40,085 nt of DNA, taken from the NCBI GenBank assembly GCA_018725565.1, contig QLUR01000025.1, forward strand, positions 1 through 40,085. Direction: 5' to 3'. Both the position numbers and the translations under genes were made by a program. Below the pieces are notes generated by a model, which saw only the letters and a list, made by a program, of their open reading frames with translations, was not told the origin of the DNA and searched no databases. The stretch comes from Bacillota bacterium. GTDB taxonomy: Bacteria > Bacillota > Dethiobacteria > Dethiobacterales > Dethiobacteraceae. Every line of letters begins with the position of its first letter. Position 1 is the first letter of the stretch. Shown in pieces: positions 25,887 to 40,083 of the stretch.

Positions 25887-26642
25887 TCAGCCTTGATTTC
25901 TATAACATAGGACAAAATCAGAAATACCGTTAACGCGCAAAATCTCTCTTGCGCGTTCTACATCCTGCTCGGTTGCATCAGGCACTCCTGCCAAACAGTA
26001 AATAAGGTCCAGGTTTCTCCATTTGTGCACACCCATAGTATGATAAGCCAGCAATTCCAAAGGGGGAACAAACGGCAGGGTCTTTATAAACTCTGCCAGT
26101 TTGCTTAACTCTTTTTCGTCATCTGTGTATCCTGGAATAATCACATAACGAATTAGCATCTTAACCTGAGAACGATTTAAGCTGATTATATTATTCATTA
26201 TTATCGCAGCATTACTCTGTCCGGTCAGTTTTTGATGCATTTCAGCAGTTGCTGCTTTAATGCTAACCATCCAAAGGTCTACGCCGGGGATTAATCCTTC
26301 TACCCATTGTTCTCCGCAGCAAAGGGACGTGTCCATTGCCACATGCACTTTATTCTCTTTTAAGAGCCGCACACACTGAGAAACAAATTCCCCTTGCAGT
26401 AAGGGCTCACCTCCAGAAAAAGTGAGCCCGCCTGCTTGATAAAAGAATTTGTTTTTGTTATACCTATCCAACACCTGTTGGGGCGTATAGAACTGCCCTT
26501 CGTCTCCGGCAGCGATTTCAGGATTATGACAAAACAGGCACTTCATCGGGCAGCCGGCCAAAAACAGCACCATGCGGACACCCGGCCCATCTACCGTACC
26601 AAATGCCTCTATTGAATGAATTAATCCCTTTAATCCACTCAA
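25887..26642 (-). CDS. pflA: pyruvate formate-lyase activating enzyme (radical SAM)
   Basis: 251 residues. The radical-SAM cluster motif is [13 protein letters not shown] (CxxxCxxC) near residue 31, followed by [11 protein letters not shown] for SAM binding. [20 protein letters not shown] is the usual opening of PflA. The enzyme abstracts a hydrogen from the glycine of PflB to form its radical, anaerobically in the cytosol. The start is TTG 26642, overlapping the pflB stop (TTGA), so the two are translationally coupled. Confidence 0.93.
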
Positions 26643-28918
26643 TTGTCAAACCCATTGTGGAAGAAAGTCCGGTTTAACACTTCCCGCTGCTGTTCTTCCG
26701 TCAACTTAATAAAGTTAACCGCGTAACCGGATACCCGGATTGTCAACTGGGGAAACTGCTCCGGATTTTTCATGGCCTCGACCAAAGTTTCTCTGTTCAT
26801 GACATTTACATTTAAATGCTGCCCACCGACATTGAACTGCCCATCCAGCAAGGATACTAAATTCTGACAACGGGAATTGTCCGTTTTACCTAAGCATTGG
26901 GGGGTCGCAGACAAGGTGTAGGAAACACCGTCCTTAGCATATTTATAGTCAACTTTAGACACAGAATTTAATGAGGCTAACACACCGCTGACATCCCGCT
27001 GGTGCATCGGGTTAGCGCCTGGCGCAAAGGGTTCGCCTTTTTGGCGGCCGCACGGGGTGGTTCCTGTTTTTTTGCCATAAACCACATTAGAGGTAATAGT
27101 CAATATCGACAGAGTGTGCTCGGCATTGCGATAGGTCGGGTTTTTGCGCAACTTGACGGCAAAATCGGCTACTATTTCTTTCGCTATATCATCAACCCGG
27201 TCATCATCATTCCCAAAGCACGGGAACTCACCATCAGTCTTAAAGTCTTGAATCAAGCCGTTTTCTCCAAATACCGGGACCACTTTGGCATATTTGATAG
27301 CGCTAAACGAATCAGCAACCACGGACAGCCCGGCAATACCGAAAGCCATATAAATATGAGGATTGACATCGTGCAGGGCCATTTCCAGCTTTTCATAGGC
27401 ATATTTATCGTGCATATAGTGGATAAGATTCATTGTGCTGACATATTGTTCGGTCAGCCAATCCAGGGTTTTATCAAAAGCAGTTCTCACTATATCATAG
27501 TTTAACACTTGCCCGGGTTGCGCCTTATAAAACTCAGGCGCCACCTTTAACCCTGTCATCTCATCCACTCCGCCGTTTAAAGTAAACAGCAGCGCTTTGG
27601 GCAAGTTAGACCGCGCTCCGAAGTACTGCGTCTCTAGACCTGCCCGCATTGCAGAAACGCAGCAAGAAATGACATAATCATCACCGTACACAGGGAGCAT
27701 CAAATCGTCATTTTCATACTGGATGGCAGAAGTTTCTATGGATAGCTGCGCACAAAACTCTTTAAATTTTTGCGGCAAGTCATTAGACCACAGCACAGTC
27801 AGGTTCGGCTCAGATGCCGGGCCAAGATTGCGCAAGGTCTGCAAGAAACGGAATGATGTTTTCGTAACCAAGGAACGTCCGTCTGCTCCCATGCCGCCGA
27901 TTGATTCCGTAATCCACATCGGATCACCGGCAAAAAGAGCATTATATTCTCTGGTGCGAAGCTGACGGGCCAAACGCAGCTTAATAACAAAATCATCAAT
28001 CAATTCTTGAGCTGCTTCTTCAGTAATAGCACCTATAGCCAAGTCCCGTTCAAGGTAAATGTCCAAAAAGGTGCTGACCCGGCCCAGGGACATGGCCGCA
28101 CCGTTTTGCTCTTTGATGGCACCCAGATAAGCAAAGTAAAGCCACTGGACCGCTTCCTTGGCAGTGTAAGCGGGGCCGGAAATATCAAAACCATAGCTGC
28201 GCGCCATTTCCTTTAACTCGTTTAAAGCATCTATTTGGTTGCTGATTTCTTCGCGCAGCTGAATTGTATCGGGGTTGATTTTTTGCAAAGCATCGCTTTC
28301 AAGCTGCTCCCGGCGCTCAGCAATCAAGCGGTCCACACCATACAGGGCAACCCTTCTGTAATCGCCGATAATCCGCCCTCTGCCATAAGCATCAGGCAAT
28401 CCTGTGAGGATGCCTGTCTTGCGCATCAGTTTCATAGTTTCAGTATAGGCTCTAAACACTCCGTCATTGTGGGTACGACGATATTTACTAAAAATCTCTT
28501 TCACTTCGTCATCAAGCTGATAGCCATACTCCTGGCAGGAAGTTTCTACAGTATTGATCCCGCCCCAGGGGTTTATAGCCCGTTTTAGCGGGGTATCCGT
28601 CTGCAAGCCCACTACTATTTCATTTTTTTTGTCCAGATATCCCGGAGCGTGAGCAGTTATAGAAGCGATGGTTTTAGTATCTATGTCGTACACTCCACCC
28701 CGCTTGTACTCTTCCATAATTAAATTGCTGCATTTTTCCCATAGCTTCTTCGTGCGAATTGTCGCACTTTTCAAAAACAAATCTCCTCCGACATAGGGCG
28801 TGTAATTTGCCTGAATAAAGGAGCGTACATCGATCGCCTTCTCCCAGGCTCCGGATTTGAACTCATGACGCAAGTAACGCAAATTTTCTGATTTTTCTAG
28901 GCACGTCTTCAATCCCAT
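26639..28918 (-). CDS. pflB: pyruvate formate-lyase (formate C-acetyltransferase)
   Basis: 759 residues, typical for PflB. It converts pyruvate and CoA to acetyl-CoA and formate by a glycyl-radical mechanism. The two catalytic cysteines are in [14 protein letters not shown] and the radical glycine in [12 protein letters not shown] near the C terminus. [15 protein letters not shown] and [14 protein letters not shown] are strong family blocks. ATG 28918 has AAAGGA five bases upstream; a GTG at 28921 is the alternative. It is divergently transcribed from the hydrogenase operon across a 360-base control region. Confidence 0.95.
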
Positions 28919-28989
28919 CACATTCCTTTCTGTTTAATTATTCTTTCTTTTCTCTATATCGCCGCTGCATAGTTACGTCTCGGCATGAA

Positions 28990-29132
28990 CCTTGCCAACT
29001 TAACCTTAACACTGCCCCTTGCAAGGTGTCAAGAACCCAAAGCGAAAAAGTAGAATTATTTAGAGATGCTTTATAATACATAGAACATCAGGGCGGCACG
29101 AGACAACCTTGACCAAGGCAAAGCGTTGCCTT
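28990..29132. promoter_or_regulatory. cluster of CCTTG/CAAGG inverted repeats between pflB and the hydrogenase operon
   Basis: A perfect CCTTGCAAGG (29017-29026) lies inside the spacer of the pflB promoter. CCTTG-AC-CAAGG (29107-29118) is followed by an overlapping AAGGCAA-AGCG-TTGCCTT (29115-29132). An imperfect CCTTGCCAAC lies at 28990-28999. The shared half-site CCTTG with 0-2 base spacers suggests one dimeric regulator; the XRE-cupin protein encoded next door is the obvious candidate. Confidence 0.5.
29004..29032 (-). promoter_or_regulatory. candidate pflB promoter
   Basis: On the minus strand a perfect TTGACA (29032-29027) is followed after 17 nt by TTAAGG (29009-29004), a weak -10. A palindrome sits in the spacer, so binding there would interfere with polymerase. 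Confidence 0.4.
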
Positions 29133-29196
29133 TTCATCGTTTCTGCTTTATTTGGTGTAAACCGTAAAGTATTAATTGACATCAATAAAATTATGC

Positions 29197-29226
29197 TTGA
29201 CATTTGTCGTGCCAGCATGTTAATAT
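29197..29226 (+). promoter_or_regulatory. candidate promoter of the regulator-hydrogenase operon
   Basis: TTGACA (29197-29202) and TAATAT (29221-29226) are separated by 18 nt. The predicted start at about 29233 lies upstream of the GTG start at 29283 and downstream of the earlier in-frame ATG codons, supporting the shorter regulator protein. Confidence 0.5.
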
Positions 29227-29282
29227 TTTCACAGGAAATATTTAATAGCAGCGTGATCTCGAATGAAGGGGTGTATAACAAC

Positions 29283-29930
29283 GTGGATCTGGCGTCCCGG
29301 CTGAAGTATCTGCGAACCACAAAGGGGATGAGCGTGCGCTCTTTGGCTAAAGAGGCCGGGGTTACACCTAGCTTTATTTATCAGATTGAAAACAAAGAAG
29401 CGGCACCTTCCCTGTCCACATTAAAAAGAATAGCCAAAGCGCTGGAAGTAAGCGCATCTTTCTTTATCGAAGATGAAGTTCCGGAAGAGTGGTTTATTCA
29501 AAAAGCAACGGCCAGAAAGAAGCTTATTACCGGCCAGGAGGGCCTGAATGTGGAGCTATTTACCTTTGCCGGCTCCAGAGTGAAGCGGCTGGAGGCGTCA
29601 ATAGTAAAGCTGGGGCCGAAGGCCAGGTCCGATCGGTATATCTACAACCATAGCCGGGACGACTTTATATACGTCTTGAAAGGGGCTTTTGAGTTTAAAC
29701 TGGATTGGGGGTGGTTTCGTCTGGAAGAAGGGGATGCAATGCACTTAAGCATCCAAGAATTGAGCGCGTTGCGTAACCCGGGAGAGCAGGAAGCAGTTGC
29801 ACTGTGGGTTGTATCCCCGACCTCGATAGAGCAGTCATTAACAACAACCGAAAAGCATAACCCAAGGGAGGAAGATCATTATGCACCAAACGGCTCAACA
29901 GAGTTTACGCCAGTTTGCCAAAGCGAATGA
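29283..29930 (+). CDS. XRE-family regulator with C-terminal cupin domain
   Basis: 215 residues from GTG 29283, 11 bases after GAAGGGG. The helix-turn-helix covers about residues 2-60 (LASRLKYLRTTKGMSVRSLA, SFIYQIENKEAAPSLSTL). The cupin barrel covers about residues 100-190, with RYIYNHSRDDFIYVLKGAFE, and probably senses a small molecule or metal. Its C-terminal 17 codons overlap the next gene, whose ribosome site is inside this one, so the regulator is made with the hydrogenase. It likely controls its own operon and perhaps pflB through the repeats at 28990-29132. The ligand is unknown; redox carriers, pyruvate or formate are plausible guesses. Confidence 0.82.
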   Translation: MDLASRLKYLRTTKGMSVRSLAKEAGVTPSFIYQIENKEAAPSLSTLKRIAKALEVSASFFIEDEVPEEWFIQKATARKKLITGQEGLNVELFTFAGSRVKRLEASIVKLGPKARSDRYIYNHSRDDFIYVLKGAFEFKLDWGWFRLEEGDAMHLSIQELSALRNPGEQEAVALWVVSPTSIEQSLTTTEKHNPREEDHYAPNGSTEFTPVCQSE

Positions 29931-30381
29931 AATCATTGACAAACACGGTCCCGAACCGGCTCATCTGATCAATATATTGCAGGATATACAGGAAGAGTAT
30001 CGTTATCTTCCCGAGGAGATTCTGTTCTATGTAGCTACAGCTATGGATATCTCCCCGGCCAAGGTTTTTGGGGTGGCTACTTTTTACGAGGACTTTTCTT
30101 TGGACCCCAAAGGCAAGTATGTAATAAAGGTGTGCGACGGCACGGCCTGTCATGTTAAGAAATCAACGGAGATACTGGATACCCTGAGAAGGGAGTTGGC
30201 GCTCAGCGAAGAGAAGCCCACCACGAACGACATGCTGTTTACGGTGGAAGTAGTTTCCTGTATTGGCGCTTGCGGGTTGGCGCCGGCGATCGTAATTAAT
30301 GACAAGGTGTATGCTAGGGTGACTCCTGGATTGACGGTAGATTTGCTCAATCGCATCAGAGAGGATGAGGCGTCCAGATGA
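29881..30381 (+). CDS. NuoE-like 2Fe-2S subunit of NAD(P)-linked [FeFe] hydrogenase
   Basis: 166 residues. The N-terminal helices (INILQDIQEEYRYLPEEILF) and the thioredoxin-like 2Fe-2S domain match NuoE/HndA/HydC. Cluster cysteines are in VCDGTACHVKKS (CxxxxC) and SCIGACGLAP (CxxxC). ATG 29881 has GGGAGGAAG upstream. The subunit carries electrons between the flavin subunit encoded next and the hydrogenase. It overlaps the following gene by four bases. Confidence 0.92.
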   Translation: MHQTAQQSLRQFAKANEIIDKHGPEPAHLINILQDIQEEYRYLPEEILFYVATAMDISPAKVFGVATFYEDFSLDPKGKYVIKVCDGTACHVKKSTEILDTLRRELALSEEKPTTNDMLFTVEVVSCIGACGLAPAIVINDKVYARVTPGLTVDLLNRIREDEASR

Positions 30382-32249
30382 AAATCATTTCCATGCAAGA
30401 CTATAACCGGCTATCCGATCTATGTGCCAGGGCGCTGGATAATCAACAGATTAAAGTGCTGGTAAGCGCCGATACCGCTGGCTTTGCCGTAGGGGCCCTG
30501 GAGGTATATCATAAGCTTCATGAGCTGATTCGGGAGCAGGGGTTGCTGGCAGACCTTGACTTGCATCAGCAGAAGACAGGTATCGGCCTTAAAAAAGGCG
30601 GTTGTTTCGGCTGTTTTGAGGGAGGGCCGCTGGTTAACATTCTGCCGCATGATTATCTCTATCAGGAGGTTAAAGAAGAAGATTGTGCGGAGATAGTGCA
30701 GACTACGCTCATTGAGGGCAAGCCGATCGAGCGGCTTCTGTTTAAGCGGGACGGCGTAATTTATAAGTCCCAGGACGAGATACCATATTATAAGAAACAG
30801 CTCAAACTGGTGCTGGGGAACTGCGGAAAGATTGACGCTGAATCAATAGAGGAATATATCGCCCAGGGAGGTTACAGGGGGCTGGCCAAATGTGTTTACG
30901 AAATGACGCCTGAGCAGGTATGCCAGACGATATCAGACTCCAAGTTAAGAGGGAGAGGCGGGGGCGGCTTTCCTGCAGGGCGCAAATGGGAGAGTGTGCG
31001 CAGGCAGAATGCCGACAAAAAATACGTTATATGCAACGGCGATGAGGGCGACCCGGGCGCCTTTATGGACAGATGTATTATGGAGGGTGATCCGCACGCG
31101 GTCATCGAAGGCATGGTGATCGGCGGCTACGCATCCGGCGCAAACTATGGATATATATATGTGCGCGCAGAGTATCCCCTGGCGGTGGCCAGGCTGCAAA
31201 AGGCGATCAATCAGGCCAGGGAGTATGGATTTTTAGGTGAAAATATACTTTCCACAGGCTTTAACTTTGACTTAAAGATCAGCAAAGGCGCCGGGGCCTT
31301 CGTCTGCGGGGAAGGAAGCGCGCTCCAGGAATCAATCCAGGGGAAAAGAGGTGTGCCCAGAGTAAGACCGCCCAGGACAGTTGAACGCGGACTTTGGGAA
31401 AAACCCACGCTTCTGAACAACGTCGAGACTTTCGCCAATGTACCCTACATTATCCTGAAGGGTCCGGAATGGTTCGTATCAATAGGCTCTCCGAATAATT
31501 CCGGAACAAAAGCGTTTGCGCTCGCCGGAAATGTCAGGGATAGCGGGCTGATTGAGGTTCCGATGGGCACTACGTTCGGTGAAGTGGTATTTGAGATCGG
31601 CGGCGGGGTTCCAGATGGAAGAAGGTTTAAAGCGGTGCAAATCGGCGGCCCTTCAGGCGGCTGTTTAACGGAGGCACATCTGGATCTGCCCATAGACTTC
31701 GACTCGCTCGACGAAGTCGGCGCCATGATGGGCTCAGGCGGGATGGTAGTCATAGACGACCGTTCTTGTATGGTCGAAGTGGCACGCTTTTTTATGTCCT
31801 TTACCCAGAAAGAATCCTGCGGCAAATGCGTACCCTGCCGGGAGGGCACAAAACGGATGCTCGAGATCATGGAAAGGATCGTCGATGGAAAAGGCAGCGA
31901 AGACGACTTGGCTATACTCGAGGACCTTTCCGGAACAGTAAGGCTGGGCTCATTATGTGGTCTGGGGAAAAGTGCCGCAAACCCGATCCTCTCAACCTTG
32001 AGATATTTTAAAGACGAATATATTAGCCATGTCCGAGAGAAAAAATGTCCGGCCGGAGTTTGTAAAAAGCTGTCAACATATGTGATCATGGCTGAAACTT
32101 GTAAAGGCTGTGCTAAGTGCAAAAAAATATGTCCTGCCCAGGCGATAGAAGGGGTTGTTAAAAATCCCTTTGCCATCATCCAGGAAAAGTGCGTCAAATG
32201 TGGCGTCTGCCTCGAAACATGCCCATTTAATGCAATCAGGGAGGCTTAA
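30378..32249 (+). CDS. NuoF-like flavoprotein subunit of NAD(P)-linked [FeFe] hydrogenase
   Basis: 623 residues. Order of parts: an N-terminal thioredoxin-like domain (about 20-120), then the NuoF flavin/NADH domain with GRGGGGFPAGRKWE and VCNGDEGDPGAFMDR-type motifs (here ICNGDEGDPGAFMDR), then the [4Fe-4S] motif ESCGKCVPCREGTKRM. Two ferredoxin-type clusters lie at the C terminus (CKGCAKCKKICP and CVKCGVCLETCP). It oxidises or reduces NAD(P)H and links to HydA, possibly by electron confurcation as in HydABC. The N-terminal domain keeps KKGGCFGCFEGG but lacks the first cysteine pair seen in homologues (it reads VLVSADTAGFAVG), so that cluster is probably altered or lost. Confidence 0.92.
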   Translation: MKIISMQDYNRLSDLCARALDNQQIKVLVSADTAGFAVGALEVYHKLHELIREQGLLADLDLHQQKTGIGLKKGGCFGCFEGGPLVNILPHDYLYQEVKEEDCAEIVQTTLIEGKPIERLLFKRDGVIYKSQDEIPYYKKQLKLVLGNCGKIDAESIEEYIAQGGYRGLAKCVYEMTPEQVCQTISDSKLRGRGGGGFPAGRKWESVRRQNADKKYVICNGDEGDPGAFMDRCIMEGDPHAVIEGMVIGGYASGANYGYIYVRAEYPLAVARLQKAINQAREYGFLGENILSTGFNFDLKISKGAGAFVCGEGSALQESIQGKRGVPRVRPPRTVERGLWEKPTLLNNVETFANVPYIILKGPEWFVSIGSPNNSGTKAFALAGNVRDSGLIEVPMGTTFGEVVFEIGGGVPDGRRFKAVQIGGPSGGCLTEAHLDLPIDFDSLDEVGAMMGSGGMVVIDDRSCMVEVARFFMSFTQKESCGKCVPCREGTKRMLEIMERIVDGKGSEDDLAILEDLSGTVRLGSLCGLGKSAANPILSTLRYFKDEYISHVREKKCPAGVCKKLSTYVIMAETCKGCAKCKKICPAQAIEGVVKNPFAIIQEKCVKCGVCLETCPFNAIREA

Positions 32250-32252
32250 CAG

Positions 32253-34220
32253 ATGAAATCCATGCAGATAAACGGGAAGACCGTTCAATTTGATCAAGAA
32301 AAAAATATGCTTGAGGTAATCAGAAACGCCGGGATAGAGCTGCCGACTTTCTGTTATTATTCCGAACTCAGTATTTACGGCGCGTGCCGTTTGTGTCTCG
32401 TCGAGGACAGAAAAGGGAATATAATCGCTTCTTGCTCCGAGCCGCCAAAGGACGGAGCGGAGATTTTGACCCATACGCTGCGGCTGCAAAAACAGCGTAG
32501 AAACACAATGGAACTTTTGCTGGCCAACCACGACAGGGATTGTACTACTTGCGGCAAAAGCGGCGCCTGCAAGCTGCAGGAGTTAACAAAGGCGCTTGGG
32601 GTGGACAGTGTCAGGTTCGGCAAGCACGATATCAGGCTGCCTTTGGATACTTCAAGCGCCTCACTTGTGAGGAATCCCAACAAATGCATCCTTTGCGGCG
32701 ATTGCGTCAGAGTGTGCGAGGAAATTCAAGGTATAGGCGTCATCGGTTTTGCCTACAGGGGCTCAAAAGCCCGTGTTACCCCTCCTTTTGATAAAAATTT
32801 GAGCGATGTCGCTTGTATCAGCTGCGGCTTGTGCGTTTCGCACTGTCCTACTGCCGCTTTGGAGGTAAGATCTGAAACAGATCATGTCTGGAGAGCGCTC
32901 TACGATGATACCAAAACGGTCGTCGCCCAGGTTGCTCCTGCGCTCAGGGTGTCATTCGGCGAGGCTTTCGGCTTAAAACCGGGAACGATCTCAACCGGCA
33001 AGATCGTCGGCGCGCTTAAAGCTCTCGGCTTTAAAATGGTCTTTGACACTTCATTCTGCTCTGATTTAACGGTTGTCGAAGAATCCGCAGAGCTAAACAA
33101 GCGAATTGCCGACAATGAATCTTTACCCCTATTTACCTCCTGCTGCCCGGCTTGGGTAAAGTTTGCCGAATTGAAGTATCCGAAATATCTTAAAAACCTC
33201 TCCACTTGCCGCTCGCCTCAGCAGATGCTTGGCTCGCTGGTAAAGGAGCGTTTTAAGCAAGCCGGAGAAAAGCAGGTGTACATGGTCTCCGTGATGCCAT
33301 GCACGGCCAAAAAAGAAGAGGCGAAAAATCCGAAATTCGCCGCAAACGGGGTAGCCGATGTCGATTCAGTGATCACGGCAATAGAGCTCGCCTCGATGAT
33401 CAAGTCCGCCGGAATTATTTTCGAGGAATTGGAAGAGCTGCCGTTTGATATGCCGTTTGGTTTCGCCACCGGAGCGGGCACCATCTTCGGTGTCACGGGA
33501 GGCGTTACCGAAGCGGTTTTAAGGGGTTTGAAACCAGGTAAGTCCGTATATAAAGAAGTAAGGGGGTTGCAGGGCCTCAAAGAATATTCGACCGAAGCCG
33601 GCGGCAGAGTGATCAAAGCTGCCATTGTGAGCGGGATTCAAAACGCGAAGAATCTGATTGCCAAAATAGAATCCGGGCAAGCGACTTATGACATTGTTGA
33701 GGTGATGGCCTGTCCGGGAGGCTGCGTCAATGGAGCAGGGCTTTCCGCCTCCCCGCATTCGGCAAAGACCAGGCTCAGAAGTGAAGGTCTTTACAAAGAG
33801 GACGCACAGATGCAGTTCGTGCGCTCCCCGGAAAACCCGGTCATAGAAAAGCTTTATGCCGATCTTCTGGGAAGCCCCGGCAGCCATAAAGCGCATGATC
33901 TTCTCCACACCCATTACAGCTCCAGGAAAAGGATTCACGCCATGGAGCTGGGTTTTGAAGAGAAGCCCCCGGAGAAGGCAGAGGAAATCAAGGTCTGCGT
34001 CGGCACCTGCTGCTATACCAAGGGTTCATATGATCTGTTCCAGGAATTTTTTAAAGAGATCGCAGAGCGCAACCTGGGAGAGCGGGTAAGCCTGCAGGCG
34101 ACTTTCTGCCTGGAACGGTGCCAGGAAAGCCCCAACATTAAGGTCGGCGACAAAATTTTAGGCGGGGTGAACCGGACCGATGTAGCGGGTATTCTCTCTG
34201 GTCTGACACCCAAGGAGTGA
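32253..34220 (+). CDS. hydA: [FeFe] hydrogenase, catalytic subunit with extra C-terminal 2Fe-2S domain
   Basis: 655 residues. N-terminal 2Fe-2S ferredoxin domain (CYYSELSIYGACRLC, cysteines from residue 34), His-Cys cluster (NHDRDCTTCGKSGAC) and two [4Fe-4S] clusters (CILCGDCVRVC, CISCGLCVSHC). The H-cluster domain follows with L1 FTSCCPAWVKF near 296, L2 MPCTAKKEEA near 349 and L3 MACPGGCVNGAG near 488. All four cluster cysteines and the proton-transfer cysteine are present. The last 75 residues add a thioredoxin-like 2Fe-2S domain (VCVGTCCYTKGSYDLF, TFCLERCQESPNI). It reduces protons or oxidises H2 in the cytosol with the two subunits before it. GGGAGG precedes ATG 32253. Confidence 0.95.
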   Translation: MKSMQINGKTVQFDQEKNMLEVIRNAGIELPTFCYYSELSIYGACRLCLVEDRKGNIIASCSEPPKDGAEILTHTLRLQKQRRNTMELLLANHDRDCTTCGKSGACKLQELTKALGVDSVRFGKHDIRLPLDTSSASLVRNPNKCILCGDCVRVCEEIQGIGVIGFAYRGSKARVTPPFDKNLSDVACISCGLCVSHCPTAALEVRSETDHVWRALYDDTKTVVAQVAPALRVSFGEAFGLKPGTISTGKIVGALKALGFKMVFDTSFCSDLTVVEESAELNKRIADNESLPLFTSCCPAWVKFAELKYPKYLKNLSTCRSPQQMLGSLVKERFKQAGEKQVYMVSVMPCTAKKEEAKNPKFAANGVADVDSVITAIELASMIKSAGIIFEELEELPFDMPFGFATGAGTIFGVTGGVTEAVLRGLKPGKSVYKEVRGLQGLKEYSTEAGGRVIKAAIVSGIQNAKNLIAKIESGQATYDIVEVMACPGGCVNGAGLSASPHSAKTRLRSEGLYKEDAQMQFVRSPENPVIEKLYADLLGSPGSHKAHDLLHTHYSSRKRIHAMELGFEEKPPEKAEEIKVCVGTCCYTKGSYDLFQEFFKEIAERNLGERVSLQATFCLERCQESPNIKVGDKILGGVNRTDVAGILSGLTPKE

Positions 34221-34227
34221 AGGTCAG

Positions 34228-34470
34228 TTGGTAATCACAGTATGTGTGGGAAGCTCATGTCATCTGCGCGGCGCCTACGGCGTAATCGAGGAGATCAAAC
34301 GGCTGATTGAGGAAGGCAAGCTCCCGGGCAAGGTCGAGCTGCAAGCCGGCTTCTGCCTGGATAACTGCCGGGGCGCCGTAAATATCAAAGTGGGAGATAC
34401 GATCATCAGCGGGGTTTCCTCCGCCAATGTAGAAGAACATTTAAGCGGCTTTCTCAGGTCGAAAGACTAA
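34228..34470 (+). CDS. small thioredoxin-like 2Fe-2S ferredoxin
   Basis: 80 residues. VCVGSSCHLRGAYGVIEEI and GFCLDNCRGAVNIKVGD give the CxxxxC and CxxxC ligand pairs. It is a free-standing relative of the last domain of the hydrogenase just upstream: the segments NIKVGD, VSLQA/VELQA and the cysteine layout align throughout. The start is TTG 34228 with AAGG upstream. It probably shuttles electrons to or from the sensory hydrogenase encoded next, or serves as an extra subunit. Confidence 0.85.
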   Translation: MVITVCVGSSCHLRGAYGVIEEIKRLIEEGKLPGKVELQAGFCLDNCRGAVNIKVGDTIISGVSSANVEEHLSGFLRSKD

Positions 34471-34483
34471 AGGAGCGAAACCG

Positions 34484-36199
34484 GTGGGAGTTATATCCAT
34501 TTCCAGCGCCAACTGCAAAAATTGCTATCGGTGTGTGCGTTTTTGCCCGGTTAAGGCGATCAACATAAAAGAAAACCAGGCCCGCCTGGAAGAAGATCGG
34601 TGTATCTATTGTGGGATCTGCGTCGGGGAATGTCCACAGAAAGCCAAGCGCATCGAAAACGGCCTGGAAGCGGTCAACCGCTACCGAGGTCAGGAGCAGC
34701 GGCTGGCGCTGAGCCTAGCCCCAACTTTCAGAGTGGTCTATTCTGATTCATTTGCTGAGCTAACAGCAAAGCTCCGTGGGCGAGGCTTCAGCCTGGTTGA
34801 AGAAACCGCGGTAGGCGCCCAGGCTGTGGCCGAGCAATTCAGACAGATGGCCGACCGGCTGCCTCCCGACCGCTGCCTGATTACATCTCCCTGCAGCGTG
34901 GCAATCACCTATATCGAAAAGTACTTTCCTCAGCTACTAACCCATTTGGCACCTTTGGTGTCGCCTATGATCGCGCACGGTCGTCTGTTAAAAGCCAAGT
35001 GGGGTTCGGATTTGAAAGTGGTTTTCGCCGGCCCCTGCATCGCCAAGAAAGACGAAGCCAAAGGAGCAGAGGTTAAGGAAGCAGTTGACGCGGTGCTTAC
35101 TTTCGACGAGCTGGCGTGCCTCCTGGCTGAACCGGCTTTTGCGGGTACAGGGGAGCCGGAAGATCTTCAGCCCGGACTTGAAGCCGAGGGAGGCCGCTGG
35201 TTTCCTCTTCCGGGAGGCCTTTTGAGAGCGGCGGGATTGGCCGAAGGGGTCTTGGAGCGCGATATTCTGATCGTCGACGGCATGGAAGAGATGAAAGATC
35301 TATTGAAGTCCCTGACCGCAGGGACGATAAAGCCGCGCCTGGTGGAGCTTTTGGCCTGCAAGGGGGGCTGTTTGGGCGGACCTTTAATAAGTTCAGATCT
35401 CACCGCTTACAGCCGGCGCGGCAAATTAATCGCTTCTCTGTCTCCGTATTCGGGTCAAGAGAAGCAGGCTGCCGGTCGCACTGCTTTGGGGCGCCGCTTT
35501 TTGGCCCAGCCTTACCGGCCGGTACGCCCGGGAGAGGATAAAATAAAAAGTATCATGAGGTCCATGGGCAAAGACAGGGCCGACAAAGAGTTAAACTGCG
35601 GCTCCTGCGGCTATCCATCTTGCAGAGACAAGGCTGTGGCCATTGCCCAGGGTATGGCGGAGCTGGAGATGTGTCTCCCCTACATGCGTGAAAAAGCGGA
35701 AAATATGGCTAACCTGATCATTGATTTTACGCCCAATGCCGTCTTGGTTGTTGATTCCAGCCTGATTATCCGGGAGTTTAATCTGGCGGCAGAGGTGATG
35801 TTTCAGGTTAAGGCCGAAGAGGTCAAGGGCAAGCCTTTGTCTGCAATTATGAACGAAGTTCATTTCCTGCAGGCTCTTGCCGGAAAAGAGACTTTTCGGG
35901 TTAAAGAGAGATGCGATCATCTGGGTCTGGTTACCTTGCAGACTCTTACCTATATCCACGAAGAGGATTTGGTGCTGGGGATAATCATGGATATAACCGG
36001 TATTGAGAAGCAGCAGCAAGCCCTGGAAACGATGAAGCGGGAAACCATTGACCGGGCGCAGGAAGTAATTGAGAAGCAGATGCGGGTAGCTCAGGAAATT
36101 GCCGGGCTGCTGGGTGAGACAACGGCTGAAAGCAAGGTGCTGCTGACCAAGCTGATACGCCTGGTCAAGGAAGGCGGCAGTGATCATGTTATCCCTTGA
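34484..36199 (+). CDS. sensory-type [FeFe] hydrogenase homologue with PAS domain
   Basis: 571 residues from GTG 34484 with AAAGGAG upstream. Order: two [4Fe-4S] ferredoxin clusters (CKNCYRCVRFCP, CIYCGICVGECP), an H-cluster domain, a further [4Fe-4S] domain (CGSCGYPSC, about residue 370) and a PAS domain (about 409-515, IIDFTPNAVLVVDSSLIIRE), then a short helix. The H-cluster loops are TSPCSVAI, GPCIAKKDEA and ACKGGCLGG. The four ligand cysteines are kept, but the proton-transfer cysteine next to the L1 cysteine is replaced by proline. That, with the PAS domain and the phosphatase that follows, fits H2 or redox sensing rather than bulk turnover, as proposed for group C [FeFe] hydrogenases. 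Function is inferred. Confidence 0.88.
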   Translation: MGVISISSANCKNCYRCVRFCPVKAINIKENQARLEEDRCIYCGICVGECPQKAKRIENGLEAVNRYRGQEQRLALSLAPTFRVVYSDSFAELTAKLRGRGFSLVEETAVGAQAVAEQFRQMADRLPPDRCLITSPCSVAITYIEKYFPQLLTHLAPLVSPMIAHGRLLKAKWGSDLKVVFAGPCIAKKDEAKGAEVKEAVDAVLTFDELACLLAEPAFAGTGEPEDLQPGLEAEGGRWFPLPGGLLRAAGLAEGVLERDILIVDGMEEMKDLLKSLTAGTIKPRLVELLACKGGCLGGPLISSDLTAYSRRGKLIASLSPYSGQEKQAAGRTALGRRFLAQPYRPVRPGEDKIKSIMRSMGKDRADKELNCGSCGYPSCRDKAVAIAQGMAELEMCLPYMREKAENMANLIIDFTPNAVLVVDSSLIIREFNLAAEVMFQVKAEEVKGKPLSAIMNEVHFLQALAGKETFRVKERCDHLGLVTLQTLTYIHEEDLVLGIIMDITGIEKQQQALETMKRETIDRAQEVIEKQMRVAQEIAGLLGETTAESKVLLTKLIRLVKEGGSDHVIP

Positions 36200-37355
36200 C
36201 ATTACCTGTAAAGCCCTGAAAAAACAAGGCGAAGAGCTGTGCGGCGACACGGTGGAAATAGTCCGGGACGACGAAAGCACTGTGATCGTGCTGGCCGACG
36301 GCTTGGGCAGTGGGGTCAAAGCGAACATCCTAGCCACCCTGACCGCCAAGATCATCGTCACCCTGATTAAAAACCATCTGGAAATTGAGGAAGTGGTGCG
36401 AACCATTGTCGAGACTCTGCCCGTATGCCGGCTGCGGGGGATCGCTTACTCCACTTTTACGGTAGTCAAGATCGATGCCAGCGGAGAAGCCCGGATCATT
36501 GAATTCGACAACCCCTCGGCCGTAATTTTTCGCGCAAAAAGCCCTTTGCCGCTTTCTTTCGAACAAAAAGAAGTGGAGGGGAGAACGATCCGGGAAACTC
36601 ACCTTCGGCTGCTTCCGGATGATGAGCTGTATATCTTCAGCGACGGAGTGGTCCACGCCGGTATCGGGAGCGCCTTAAAACTGGGCTGGCAGCGGGATAA
36701 CATCATCGCCGACATTGAGCGCATGACCCGGGCCAAAGATAGCTCCATCTACGAAAAAGTCGGCAGCCTCATCTATTTTTGTAATATTTACTACCAGGAG
36801 GCGCCCGGGGATGATTCTACGATCGTCGGCTTGAAGGTGCGCCAGCCCCGTCCGGGAGCAATTATGATCGGTTCGCCCTTAGAGCGGGAAAAAGATCGGG
36901 AAGTGGTGGACGTGCTGATGTCGGAGGGCAACTTTTACAAAGCAGTATGCGGCGGCACCGCTTCAAAAATTGTGGCCCGGGAAACCGGGCGTGAGCTGGA
37001 GGTCAATTTGGACTTTCCCGATCCCACAGTGCCACCCACCGGAATCATAAAAGGGCTCGATCTGGTAAGCGAGGGCGCCGTGACCATCAGTAAAGCTCTG
37101 GAGATGCTGCGCGCCATCTCCTGGGAAGAGGCGATCTCGCCGGATCTGGCAGAGAAAAAAGACGGCGCCTCACGGTTGGCCTCTTTTTTATTGGAAAAAT
37201 GCACCCAGGTAAAGTTCCTTATTGGCCGGCAGGAAAACCCAGCTCACCGGGGGGACGGTTTTCCTCCGGCGCTAAACCAAAAACACCGGGATCTGCAGGA
37301 GATTATCCATATCCTTAACGCCCTGGGCAAGAAAACAGAAGCTGTTTATTATTAA
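36186..37355 (+). CDS. SpoIIE/PP2C-type serine phosphatase linked to the sensory hydrogenase
   Basis: About 389 residues from ATG 36186, with GTG 36180 as alternative start. Metal-binding points of the PP2C fold are present: EELCGDTVEIV, VIVLADGLGSGVKA, DELYIFSDGVVHAGIG and APGDDSTIVGLKV. The last 160 residues have no domain I can name (VVDVLMSEGNFYKAVCGGTA). It overlaps the sensory hydrogenase gene by 14 bases. In related Firmicutes the PAS-hydrogenase and this phosphatase occur together, implying that the hydrogenase signal alters dephosphorylation of an unknown protein, perhaps an anti-anti-sigma factor (inference). No target is encoded in the window. The 110 bases after it hold no clear terminator. 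Confidence 0.88.
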   Translation: MLSLDITCKALKKQGEELCGDTVEIVRDDESTVIVLADGLGSGVKANILATLTAKIIVTLIKNHLEIEEVVRTIVETLPVCRLRGIAYSTFTVVKIDASGEARIIEFDNPSAVIFRAKSPLPLSFEQKEVEGRTIRETHLRLLPDDELYIFSDGVVHAGIGSALKLGWQRDNIIADIERMTRAKDSSIYEKVGSLIYFCNIYYQEAPGDDSTIVGLKVRQPRPGAIMIGSPLEREKDREVVDVLMSEGNFYKAVCGGTASKIVARETGRELEVNLDFPDPTVPPTGIIKGLDLVSEGAVTISKALEMLRAISWEEAISPDLAEKKDGASRLASFLLEKCTQVKFLIGRQENPAHRGDGFPPALNQKHRDLQEIIHILNALGKKTEAVYY

Positions 37356-37465: not shown

Positions 37466-38845
37466 CTAATAGTGTCTCATGGCTGTTACCGGATCAAGGC
37501 GCATGGCCCGGGTGGCGGGATACAGACCGGCGATAAGCCCTATGGTTGTGCTGAATGCTAAGGCAAAAACGGTGAGCCACAAGGGAATAACGGAAATTCG
37601 CACCGGCGGGGCTTCCGGGCCCATTGCTCCGGCGCCGATGGCTGCCCCTGCATAGATATTTATCAGCAGCGACAGCAGAAAACTGCAGACAAGCCCCAAG
37701 ATGCCGCCCAGCAGGCCGATCAGAGCTGCTTCAGTCAAAAATAGTCCCCGTATATCGGAGAAAGAGGCGCCCAGCACTTTGATCACGGCAATTTCCCTGG
37801 TCCGCTCGTAAATAGACATAACCATCGTGTTGATAATGCCAATGGTAGCCACCAGCAAGCTGATGGCGCCGATCCCCCCCAGAACGGCCTGCACCGTCCT
37901 GGTGCCTTGCTCTATGCCCTCCAGCTGGTCAGCAATTGAATGGGCTTGGTAGCCCATTTGGCGCAATTCCTCGCCCAGCTGCTTGGTATACTCCACGCTC
38001 TTTGTTCTGACGGAGGCAAAACTATACTGCAGTTCCAGGCGTTCCCGCCTCCGCACCCTCTGCAGGCCAGCCGCCTGATCCCGCTGCCTGTTGACCGGCT
38101 CGACAAGATGAACCTGCGCTGGCTGCGCCCCCTGATTGATAAAGTTGTGCATTTCCCTGAGGAGACTTAGCGGGGCATACACGGAGTGAGCACGCTCCGC
38201 GAACTGGGGACCAAGGATACCTACCACGTTAAGGGTGTACCTTCTCTTTTGTCCCCGGGCGTTTTGCAGGGTCAGCACCAGCCGTTGGTCAAGCAGCTCC
38301 AGGGAATCCCTGCCTGCCGGCGGACCAATCACTGCTGCCGGTCCGGGTCTCCCCAGCTGCATGAAGTTATTAATCACATGCGCTCCCGCCACCACATTGT
38401 AACGGTCCTCATCATGGAGCAGCCTTCCTGCCTTAGGCTCAAATTCCATCAATGCCATCTTGCCGGGCTCGATCCCGATCAGCTGGAGATAGCCCCTTTC
38501 CCTTCCTTTTCTGGCCTCACCACCCACGGTAAAGGCCGGAGCCACTCCAAGAACACCAGGCATCGCTTCTATCTCTGAAACTGCTTGCTCATTCAGCAGC
38601 CTTAATTTATCCCGTTCTTCTTCGGGCATCCCGGGATAAAAGAAAGCTTGACTGACAGTAATGATGTTTAAACTCCCCCATTGCTCCATGCTCACTCTCT
38701 GCCATTCAGCCAGGCCAATGCCAAGCGAAAACAGCACAATAACCGAAACCGTTCCGATGGTCATCCCCAGTACCGTAAGTATCGTCCGGCCTTTGCGACG
38801 CCAGAGGTTCCTGTTGGCCAGCACCAGTAAATCATTAGCTTTCAT
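37466..38845 (-). CDS. MacB/FtsX-type ABC transporter permease
   Basis: About 459 residues from ATG 38845 with AGGGGG upstream. The topology is one N-terminal membrane helix (RTILTVLGMTIGTVSVIVLF), a large extracytoplasmic domain of about 230 residues with SVAPAF- and IIGIEPGKMALM-like segments, then three helices at the C terminus (ISLLVATIGIINTMVMSIYE, LLGGILGLVCSFLLSLLINI). IYERTREIAVIKVLGA is the conserved cytoplasmic loop. Such permeases work with LolD-like ATPases to move peptides, toxins or lipoproteins across the envelope, or as mechanotransmitters. It is preceded closely by its ATPase gene. Confidence 0.9.
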   Translation of the reverse strand: MKANDLLVLANRNLWRRKGRTILTVLGMTIGTVSVIVLFSLGIGLAEWQRVSMEQWGSLNIITVSQAFFYPGMPEEERDKLRLLNEQAVSEIEAMPGVLGVAPAFTVGGEARKGRERGYLQLIGIEPGKMALMEFEPKAGRLLHDEDRYNVVAGAHVINNFMQLGRPGPAAVIGPPAGRDSLELLDQRLVLTLQNARGQKRRYTLNVVGILGPQFAERAHSVYAPLSLLREMHNFINQGAQPAQVHLVEPVNRQRDQAAGLQRVRRRERLELQYSFASVRTKSVEYTKQLGEELRQMGYQAHSIADQLEGIEQGTRTVQAVLGGIGAISLLVATIGIINTMVMSIYERTREIAVIKVLGASFSDIRGLFLTEAALIGLLGGILGLVCSFLLSLLINIYAGAAIGAGAMGPEAPPVRISVIPLWLTVFALAFSTTIGLIAGLYPATRAMRLDPVTAMRHY

Positions 38846-38870
38846 AACCAGCCCCCTGCTTGCCTGAAAT

Positions 38871-39545
38871 TTACTCGTCAACCAGCCTGCCATCAGACAT
38901 GTAGATTATTCTGTCAGCAATGCCAGCTATATTGCTGTCATGTGTAACAAGTACCACTGTCTGCCTGTCCCTTTTTGCCGCTTCTTTAAGATGAGCGACA
39001 ATCTCCGCTGACGTGCGCGTGTCCAGATTTCCCGTAGGCTCATCAGCAAAAATTATTTTCGGTCGGTTGACCAAGGCCCTTGCTATGCTGACCCGCTGCT
39101 GCTGCCCGCCGCTCATCTCCATCGGCTTGTGCCTGCAGCGGTCTGCCAGGCCTACCAACTCCAGCGCCTGCATGGCCCTGGCCAGGCGCTCCTTTCTGGC
39201 GATGCCGGCAAAAACCAGCGGCAGCGCCACGTTTTCCAGCGCGGTCAGGGCAGGAAGCAAGTTGTACCCCTGAAAAACAAAACCCATAAACTTGCGGCGA
39301 AACAGCACCAGGTCTTTTTCCTTTAACTTATTCAATGCTACATTGCGAAAGCGAACTTCTCCTTTTGTGGGCCGCTCTAGGCCGGCCGCAATATTAAGCA
39401 GGGTTGTCTTGCCGCATCCGGACGTTCCGGAGACAGTAACAAACTCGCCGTCCTCCACTGTTATGGACAAATGGTCAAGCGCGGTGACAATGCTGTCACC
39501 CATGCGGTATTTTTTGACTATGTCGCGCAGGGCAAGTATGGCCAT
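38871..39545 (-). CDS. LolD/MacB-type ABC transporter ATP-binding protein
   Basis: 224 residues from ATG 39545 with AAAGGGG upstream; the longer frame from 39650 begins inside the upstream gene. Walker A is GTSGCGKTTLL, the signature is MSGGQQQRVSIARALV and Walker B is IIFADEPTGNLDTR, with the LVTHDSN histidine. It is typical of the LolD/MacB/SalX class that pairs with FtsX-type permeases. It follows the surface-protein gene at 39595 in the same direction and precedes its permease by 25 bases. Confidence 0.92.
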   Translation of the reverse strand: MAILALRDIVKKYRMGDSIVTALDHLSITVEDGEFVTVSGTSGCGKTTLLNIAAGLERPTKGEVRFRNVALNKLKEKDLVLFRRKFMGFVFQGYNLLPALTALENVALPLVFAGIARKERLARAMQALELVGLADRCRHKPMEMSGGQQQRVSIARALVNRPKIIFADEPTGNLDTRTSAEIVAHLKEAAKRDRQTVVLVTHDSNIAGIADRIIYMSDGRLVDE

Positions 39546-39594
39546 GCCTGACCCCTTTCGGACGGCGCAATGAACCGTCTGCAAAGCTTCCGTA

Positions 39595-40083
39595 TTACCC
39601 CTGCTCGTCGAGGAATGCTTCCCGGCGTCTGTTTTTGCGCTTCCTGACAATCAGCGCCACAGTGATTCCCGCGACGGCCACGGCAGCTCCGCCCCACAAC
39701 AAGGTCAGCAAAAGCATCCCTCCCGTTTGTCCCGGTCCCGGGACAGGGGTAAGCGGCACCCCTTCCGGTGGCTGCGGCATCGGCTGTACTTCCAGTGTAA
39801 AAGGATGGTCAAGGCGCACTTCCTGGTTACGGCCATCCAGGAAGGTAACAGCCAGGTTTCCGGACAAGGTGCCTTCTGCGGCAGGGATAATCATCCCCTG
39901 AAAGAAATCGCTTGTCCCTATTTCCAGCCGTGGCACGAAGTAAGTGGCGTTTTCCTTGGGAAAATCGCCTTCGATGCTTACCAGGACATTGCTTAAGACA
40001 GTTCTCCCTGAGTATTCCTGCGGCATCCGGCCAGCAATCCTGTGACATCCGGCCAGAGTTCTTGTCACATCCGGCCACAGTTC
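39595..40083 (-). CDS. C-terminal part of a membrane-anchored surface protein (5' part outside window)
   Basis: Only the 3' part is present and the frame stays open to the window edge. Residues after the edge repeats (RTVLSNVLVSIEGDFPKENA, LAVTFLDGRNQEVRLDHPF) form a beta-sandwich of the COG1361/NEW3 type found in proteins beside MacB-like transporters. A proline-rich spacer (PQPPEGVPLTPVPGPG), a membrane helix (MLLLTLLWGGAAVAVAGITV) and a basic stop-transfer end follow. The N-terminal segment is encoded by a 22-bp tandem repeat, which is not a multiple of three, so its reading there is doubtful. It is likely the extracytoplasmic accessory subunit of the transporter. Confidence 0.6.
   Translation of the reverse strand, partial: ELWPDVTRTLAGCHRIAGRMPQEYSGRTVLSNVLVSIEGDFPKENATYFVPRLEIGTSDFFQGMIIPAAEGTLSGNLAVTFLDGRNQEVRLDHPFTLEVQPMPQPPEGVPLTPVPGPGQTGGMLLLTLLWGGAAVAVAGITVALIVRKRKNRRREAFLDEQG

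Follow-up and report, generated by a model that had tools for sequence, protein, structure and literature searches.

Three consecutive forward-strand genes are the subject of this analysis of the window (the whole stretch of DNA examined, 40,085 nucleotides long, from a source genome labelled G000). The first (34228–34470), in the position of hfsA, encodes a small thioredoxin-like [2Fe-2S] protein of 80 aa (PF01257, 2.6e-6); the second (34484–36199) encodes HydS, a PAS-bearing group C (C3) [FeFe] hydrogenase of 571 aa assigned by Pfam, alignment and tree; and the third (36180–37355), in the position of hfsC, encodes a PP2C/PPM phosphatase of 391 aa with an additional C-terminal domain. Directly upstream lies a group A hydrogenase set, HydC/HydB/HydA (NuoE-, NuoF- and NuoG-like; 29881–34220, forward strand), probably bifurcating, headed by an XRE-cupin regulator (29109–29930, forward strand; PF01381, PF07883). 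The HydABC set and the HydS unit run on the same strand with short gaps or overlaps and likely share an operon, the limits of which were judged from gene spacing because promoter and terminator scans of the window gave only chance-level results. We infer that the XRE-cupin regulator may be a candidate transcriptional output; a 43% identical homologue stands directly downstream of the HydS-phosphatase pair in another locus (L072). The genes that follow in the window (37466–39650) are FtsX/MacB-type ABC transporter genes on the opposite strand, and on its other side the hydrogenase operon is adjoined by a glycyl radical (pyruvate formate-lyase-like) enzyme with its radical SAM activase (25887–28921, reverse strand).

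The small [2Fe-2S] gene belongs to the conserved unit, which is one of three genes: of the 41 loci whose contigs reach that far, 39 have a homologue of it no more than 0.5 kb ahead of HydS. The exceptions are L069 and L075, and in L075 the HydA gene directly upstream of HydS carries the domain as a fusion. In the window, HydA itself ends in a thioredoxin-like [2Fe-2S] domain (33954–34217) that resembles the adjacent 80-aa gene (tblastn 1.8e-16), as if one had been duplicated from the other; L075 has the fused form only.

Anatomy of HydS and its conserved tail

The sequence-only reading had described retained H-cluster cysteines, a TSPC motif, a PAS domain and an overlapping SpoIIE-like phosphatase gene, all of which were confirmed by Pfam searches and a residue check; the small [2Fe-2S] gene lies ahead of the span which that reading covered. 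HydS matches Fe_hyd_lg_C (E=8.5e-46), the FeS family PF04060 (1.1e-10) and PAS (2.2e-6), and its H-cluster domain (34709–35383; PF02906) keeps all four cysteine ligands (C137, C185, C292 and C296). Two CX2CX2CX3C [4Fe-4S] motifs (C11/14/17/21 and C40/43/46/50) occupy the N-terminus, and a Cx2Cx4Cx16C motif (C372/375/380/397; 35597–35674; sequence and PF04060), indicative of an extra [4Fe-4S] cluster, lies between the H-domain and the PAS domain (35714–35923; PF00989, 2.2e-6), an arrangement that fits the M2f layout (PMC8163306). The extra FeS clusters are conserved across the HydS alignment. In our tree, with named C3 references outside it, PAS-bearing HydS proteins form one supported clade (0.996) beside a group-D-like protein (0.991).

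Where catalytic enzymes have TSCC, HydS has TSPC (T134-S135-P136-C137; 34883–34894), so that Pro136 occupies the position of the proton-transfer cysteine, next to the H-cluster ligand C137. Among aligned HydS proteins, proline is seen here solely in the window copy and in L004, the protein closest to it; cysteine is found in most, and the second G000 copy has serine. In HydDB sensory sequences this position is Ala in ~43%, Cys in 17% and Pro in ~10%, and the HydS of Thermotoga maritima, with Ala where the window protein has Pro (position 299), turns over H2 (PMC10055695). We therefore rejected Pro136 as a diagnostic mark of lost catalysis or of a sensor, a use to which the sequence-only reading had put it; with cysteine in most relatives and an active Ala-bearing HydS, neither low nor high turnover decides sensor status, and the high H2 turnover that had been proposed as refuting a sensor role is a poor refuter. 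At the positions equivalent to Met353 and Met497 of CpI, assigned by motif, HydS has Gly183 and Leu290, respectively; T. maritima HydS also has Gly at the Met353 position (PMC8163306).

Beyond the PAS domain, HydS ends in a tail (36044–36154) that is nearly invariant in the HydS alignment, VIEKQMxVxQEIAxLLGETTAExK, whereas the PAS core is variable. Within G000 this tail is confined to the two HydS proteins. By analogy with RsbU, which is switched on when its partner RsbT makes the linker form a coiled coil (PMC12143880), the tail is likely to act as the transmitter to the phosphatase. A switch helix is common to PP2C enzymes (PMC5468089), and its counterparts belong to the best-conserved regions of the phosphatases aligned here.

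The phosphatase and its C-terminal domain

The phosphatase reading frame overlaps HydS by 20 nt from a GTG start (36180) or by 14 nt from an ATG (36186), the latter having the better homologue support. Its SpoIIE/RsbU-type catalytic domain (36180–36842; PF07228, E=2.3e-12, residues 30–220) retains Asp23, Asp40 (in Asp40-Gly41), Asp155, Asp211 and Asp212, all invariant in 38/38 phosphatases. The AlphaFold2 model (pLDDT 86.6) matches PP2C structures in Foldseek searches, including 3pu9 (6.5e-14), SpoIIE (5mqh, 1.3e-13) and RsbX (3w40, 1.6e-12), as well as the RsbU domain of Rv1364c; given these model matches and the invariant aspartates, the enzyme should be catalytically active. The catalytic domain and switch-helix region are those of the RsbU/SpoIIE PPM phosphatases (PMC12143880, PMC5468089, PMC11418112), from which the window protein differs in its separate FeS/H-cluster sensor protein, its extra C-terminal domain and the lack of an evident STAS partner.

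The last ~170 residues (36843–37352) are predicted to form a Rossmann-like domain of alternating alpha and beta elements, and the domain modelled alone (pLDDT 86.5, pTM 0.84) reaches the same confidence as the whole-protein model. Structure prediction, suggested at the outset for this part, thus yielded a confident fold, and the earlier statement that the C-terminal ~160 residues carry no recognised domain was borne out: the window copy matches no Pfam family at E<=1, and the scattered hits obtained with 36 members did not rise above chance. A profile of the domain searched against PDB sequences returned phosphoheptose isomerase (E=0.05), a second match at E=6 and nothing else, and Foldseek found none at E<=0.001, the best being methylglyoxal synthases (3e-3, TM about 0.4–0.5). 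VIA-align gave Z scores of 7.6–9.0 to the alpha/beta domain of FhcB/FwdB/NuoG and of 5–6 to Can2, methylglyoxal synthase and others, matches which may reflect merely a common arrangement and from which we claim no function.

Four motifs of this domain are invariant: a GPP-type motif (231–233), CGGT (257–260), E298-G299 (within TEG/SEG) and N353-x-A355-H356 (within GxxxNPAH). They fall at or just after the predicted strands 225–230, 253–257, 295–297 and 343–348, that is, at strand ends, where such folds bind ligands, and the conserved surface of the model accordingly looks like a ligand pocket. The domain is patchily distributed, in 6 of 97 genomes of the class, and occurs there only on phosphatases of ~390–400 aa, save for a 49-aa fragment (G044, L064) and one reading frame extended by masked bases.

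Linkage of HydS and phosphatase across genomes

The strongest evidence that HydS and the phosphatase form a pair is their linkage: HydS lies directly upstream in 44/44 phosphatases of this type examined. This count comprises 35/35 loci found by scanning one genome per species with the phosphatase alone as query, 7/7 more found in the same class through the C-terminal domain alone, and both G000 copies; the 49-aa match was left outside it. The second G000 copy is a complete three-gene unit on contig 19 (C19; L056, 2157–5382). No further hydrogenase gene adjoins it, which shows the unit to be self-contained and able to stand alone. This second copy sits among lysine-pathway genes (lysA, dapF, an aminotransferase and asd, named by eye).

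HydS could in principle be an ordinary low-rate hydrogenase with a phosphatase that merely shares its operon, as H2 turnover is documented for group C/D enzymes (PMC10055695, PMC8163306). We regard this as very improbable, considering the unbroken linkage, which extends to the contig 19 site away from other hydrogenase genes, and the presence of a PAS domain and a conserved tail that have no catalytic role.

Elsewhere, the unit repeatedly neighbours HydA-type hydrogenases, Rex (in 8 loci) and AdhE (in 3), the last two named by eye, a setting that points towards the regulation of fermentation. In three loci of gut clostridia (L007, L013 and L034), AdhE and then a small APH-fold kinase-like gene stand directly before the three-gene unit. 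Counting L010 and L014, this kinase-like gene, its fold named by eye, precedes the unit in five loci; none lies beside the window unit, and that its product might be the opposing kinase is a guess.

The same gene order, with hfsA, a PAS hydrogenase (hfsB) and a serine phosphatase (hfsC), is found in hfsABCD of Thermoanaerobacterium saccharolyticum, to which the window unit is likened by order (PMC5707799, PMC11837493); the downstream hfsD-type ferredoxin hydrogenase is absent in the window but present in most relatives. The H-domain, extra FeS motif and PAS domain of HydS likewise recur in HydS of Ruminococcus albus and T. maritima (PMC6776011, PMC10055695), and a 2019 rumen study described the R. 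albus PAS group C hydrogenase with a Ser/Thr phosphatase subunit (PMC6776011). HydDB had in 2016 named group C3, a PAS-bearing HydS adjoining a Ser/Thr phosphatase with presumed H2 sensing, ‘Phosphatase-linked (putative)’, a group that ‘may sense H2 and regulate processes via serine/threonine phosphatases’ (PMC5037454). The idea of H2-to-dephosphorylation signalling is therefore already published (HydDB C3; hfsB-hfsC), and the window unit is a further C3 member, with no difference in kind from that description; what sets this copy apart is its place behind a HydABC set and the proline at the Cys299 position. We found no mention of the C-terminal phosphatase domain or of the small gene in the available part of the HydDB account of C3 (PMC5037454), and open papers yielded neither a description of the conserved C-terminal domain and HydS tail nor one linking hydrogen sensing with SpoIIE.

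Proposed signalling, target and alternative readings

Taken together, we consider it probable that the window encodes a group C3 sensory [FeFe] hydrogenase unit with an hfsA-hfsB-hfsC-like layout that signals through the HydS tail to the phosphatase. Of the device proposed in the sequence-only reading, which would turn H2 or redox state into protein dephosphorylation, the pairing thus stands, on the anatomy of the proteins, the 44/44 linkage and the match to C3, while the TSPC proline falls away as support. The signalling steps, the direction of regulation and the target we infer as follows. The H-cluster and FeS chain within HydS would adopt a state dictated by H2 or by electron-pool redox, and the small [2Fe-2S] protein probably exchanges electrons with HydS; the Cx2Cx4Cx16C cluster and the PAS domain would pass this state on to the C-terminal tail; and the tail would bind the phosphatase in trans and move its switch helices, comparable to RsbT and the coiled-coil linkers acting on RsbU. 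The phosphatase would then remove the phosphate from a Ser/Thr-phosphoprotein, which is probably no STAS protein and may govern how the neighbouring hydrogenase and fermentation enzymes are expressed or how active they are, and the Rossmann-like domain of the phosphatase may bind a second ligand or the substrate. Open literature holds no measured HydS-phosphatase interaction, H2 response or phosphatase activity for such units that we could find.

In T. saccharolyticum, hfsA, hfsB, hfsC and hfsD have been deleted singly, with differing fermentation outcomes; the effects of A and B differ from those of C and D, which counts against a clear pathway order, and loss of hfsA reduced hfsB-D expression (PMC5707799). 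That the hfsA and hfsB deletions are alike (PMC5707799) would suit a pair sensing general redox rather than H2, in which the small [2Fe-2S] protein and the N-terminal clusters relay input from NADH or ferredoxin and the H-cluster serves as a by-pass or tuning site. The near-constant presence of the small protein, the conserved extra FeS clusters and the eight loci in which Rex, an NADH-responsive repressor, precedes the unit are in keeping with such sensing; however, every H-cluster ligand is kept, and C/D relatives activate H2 despite altered pockets (PMC10055695, PMC8163306), so that we see general redox sensing as possible yet clearly less probable than H2 signalling by the C3 unit.

The earlier statement that no target lies nearby holds for STAS and anti-sigma genes: neither is found near the window unit, and STAS genes are not a recurring feature around the unit in other loci. 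The genome search for a STAS partner proposed in that reading went against one. With PF01740 and PF13466, G000 yielded a single STAS protein, SpoIIAA beside SpoIIAB (both named by size, pairing and order). A SpoIIE for SpoIIAA is already encoded there (C58), and in a relative with two units (G042, a 93% complete draft) no STAS protein was detected. A STAS target is hence not obligatory, though absence from a draft genome is no proof, and the odds of this obvious target are lowered. The phosphatase could instead be an RsbU-like partner switcher whose substrate is SpoIIAA or another STAS protein, so that H2 would control a sigma factor. Such a role accords with the SpoIIE/RsbU kind of PP2C domain, with SpoIIAA and SpoIIAB in G000 and with an RsbW/SpoIIAB-like ATPase adjoining another of its sensory hydrogenases; with SpoIIAA already served by SpoIIE, no recurring STAS neighbour and no STAS match in G042, we think it unlikely.

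Within the favoured C3 reading, the phosphatase might even be a two-input switch, in which HydS reports H2 and the strand-end motifs of the C-terminal domain hold a metabolite or redox cofactor, so that a non-STAS Ser/Thr-phosphoprotein of fermentation would lose its phosphate only if both signals, H2 and metabolic state, concur; we put this forward speculatively, as rather improbable. The HydS tail, the extra phosphatase domain and the small [2Fe-2S] partner are testable parts of a system in which anaerobes would sense H2 and shift among H2, acetate and ethanol, a matter of importance for biofuel strains and for ruminant methane.

Two further G000 loci carry related proteins. On contig 102 (L055, 363–8041), a classical HydABC operon includes a kinase-linked sensory unit, in which the RsbW/SpoIIAB-like ATPase (737–1192) overlaps a group-D-like [FeFe] hydrogenase without PAS (1189–2535), so that the genome holds one kinase-linked alongside two phosphatase-linked sensory units. 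On contig 2 (L057, 1521–2621), adjoined by two unassigned genes, is a sixth [FeFe] hydrogenase-domain protein, of 366 aa and with a deviating ligand region.
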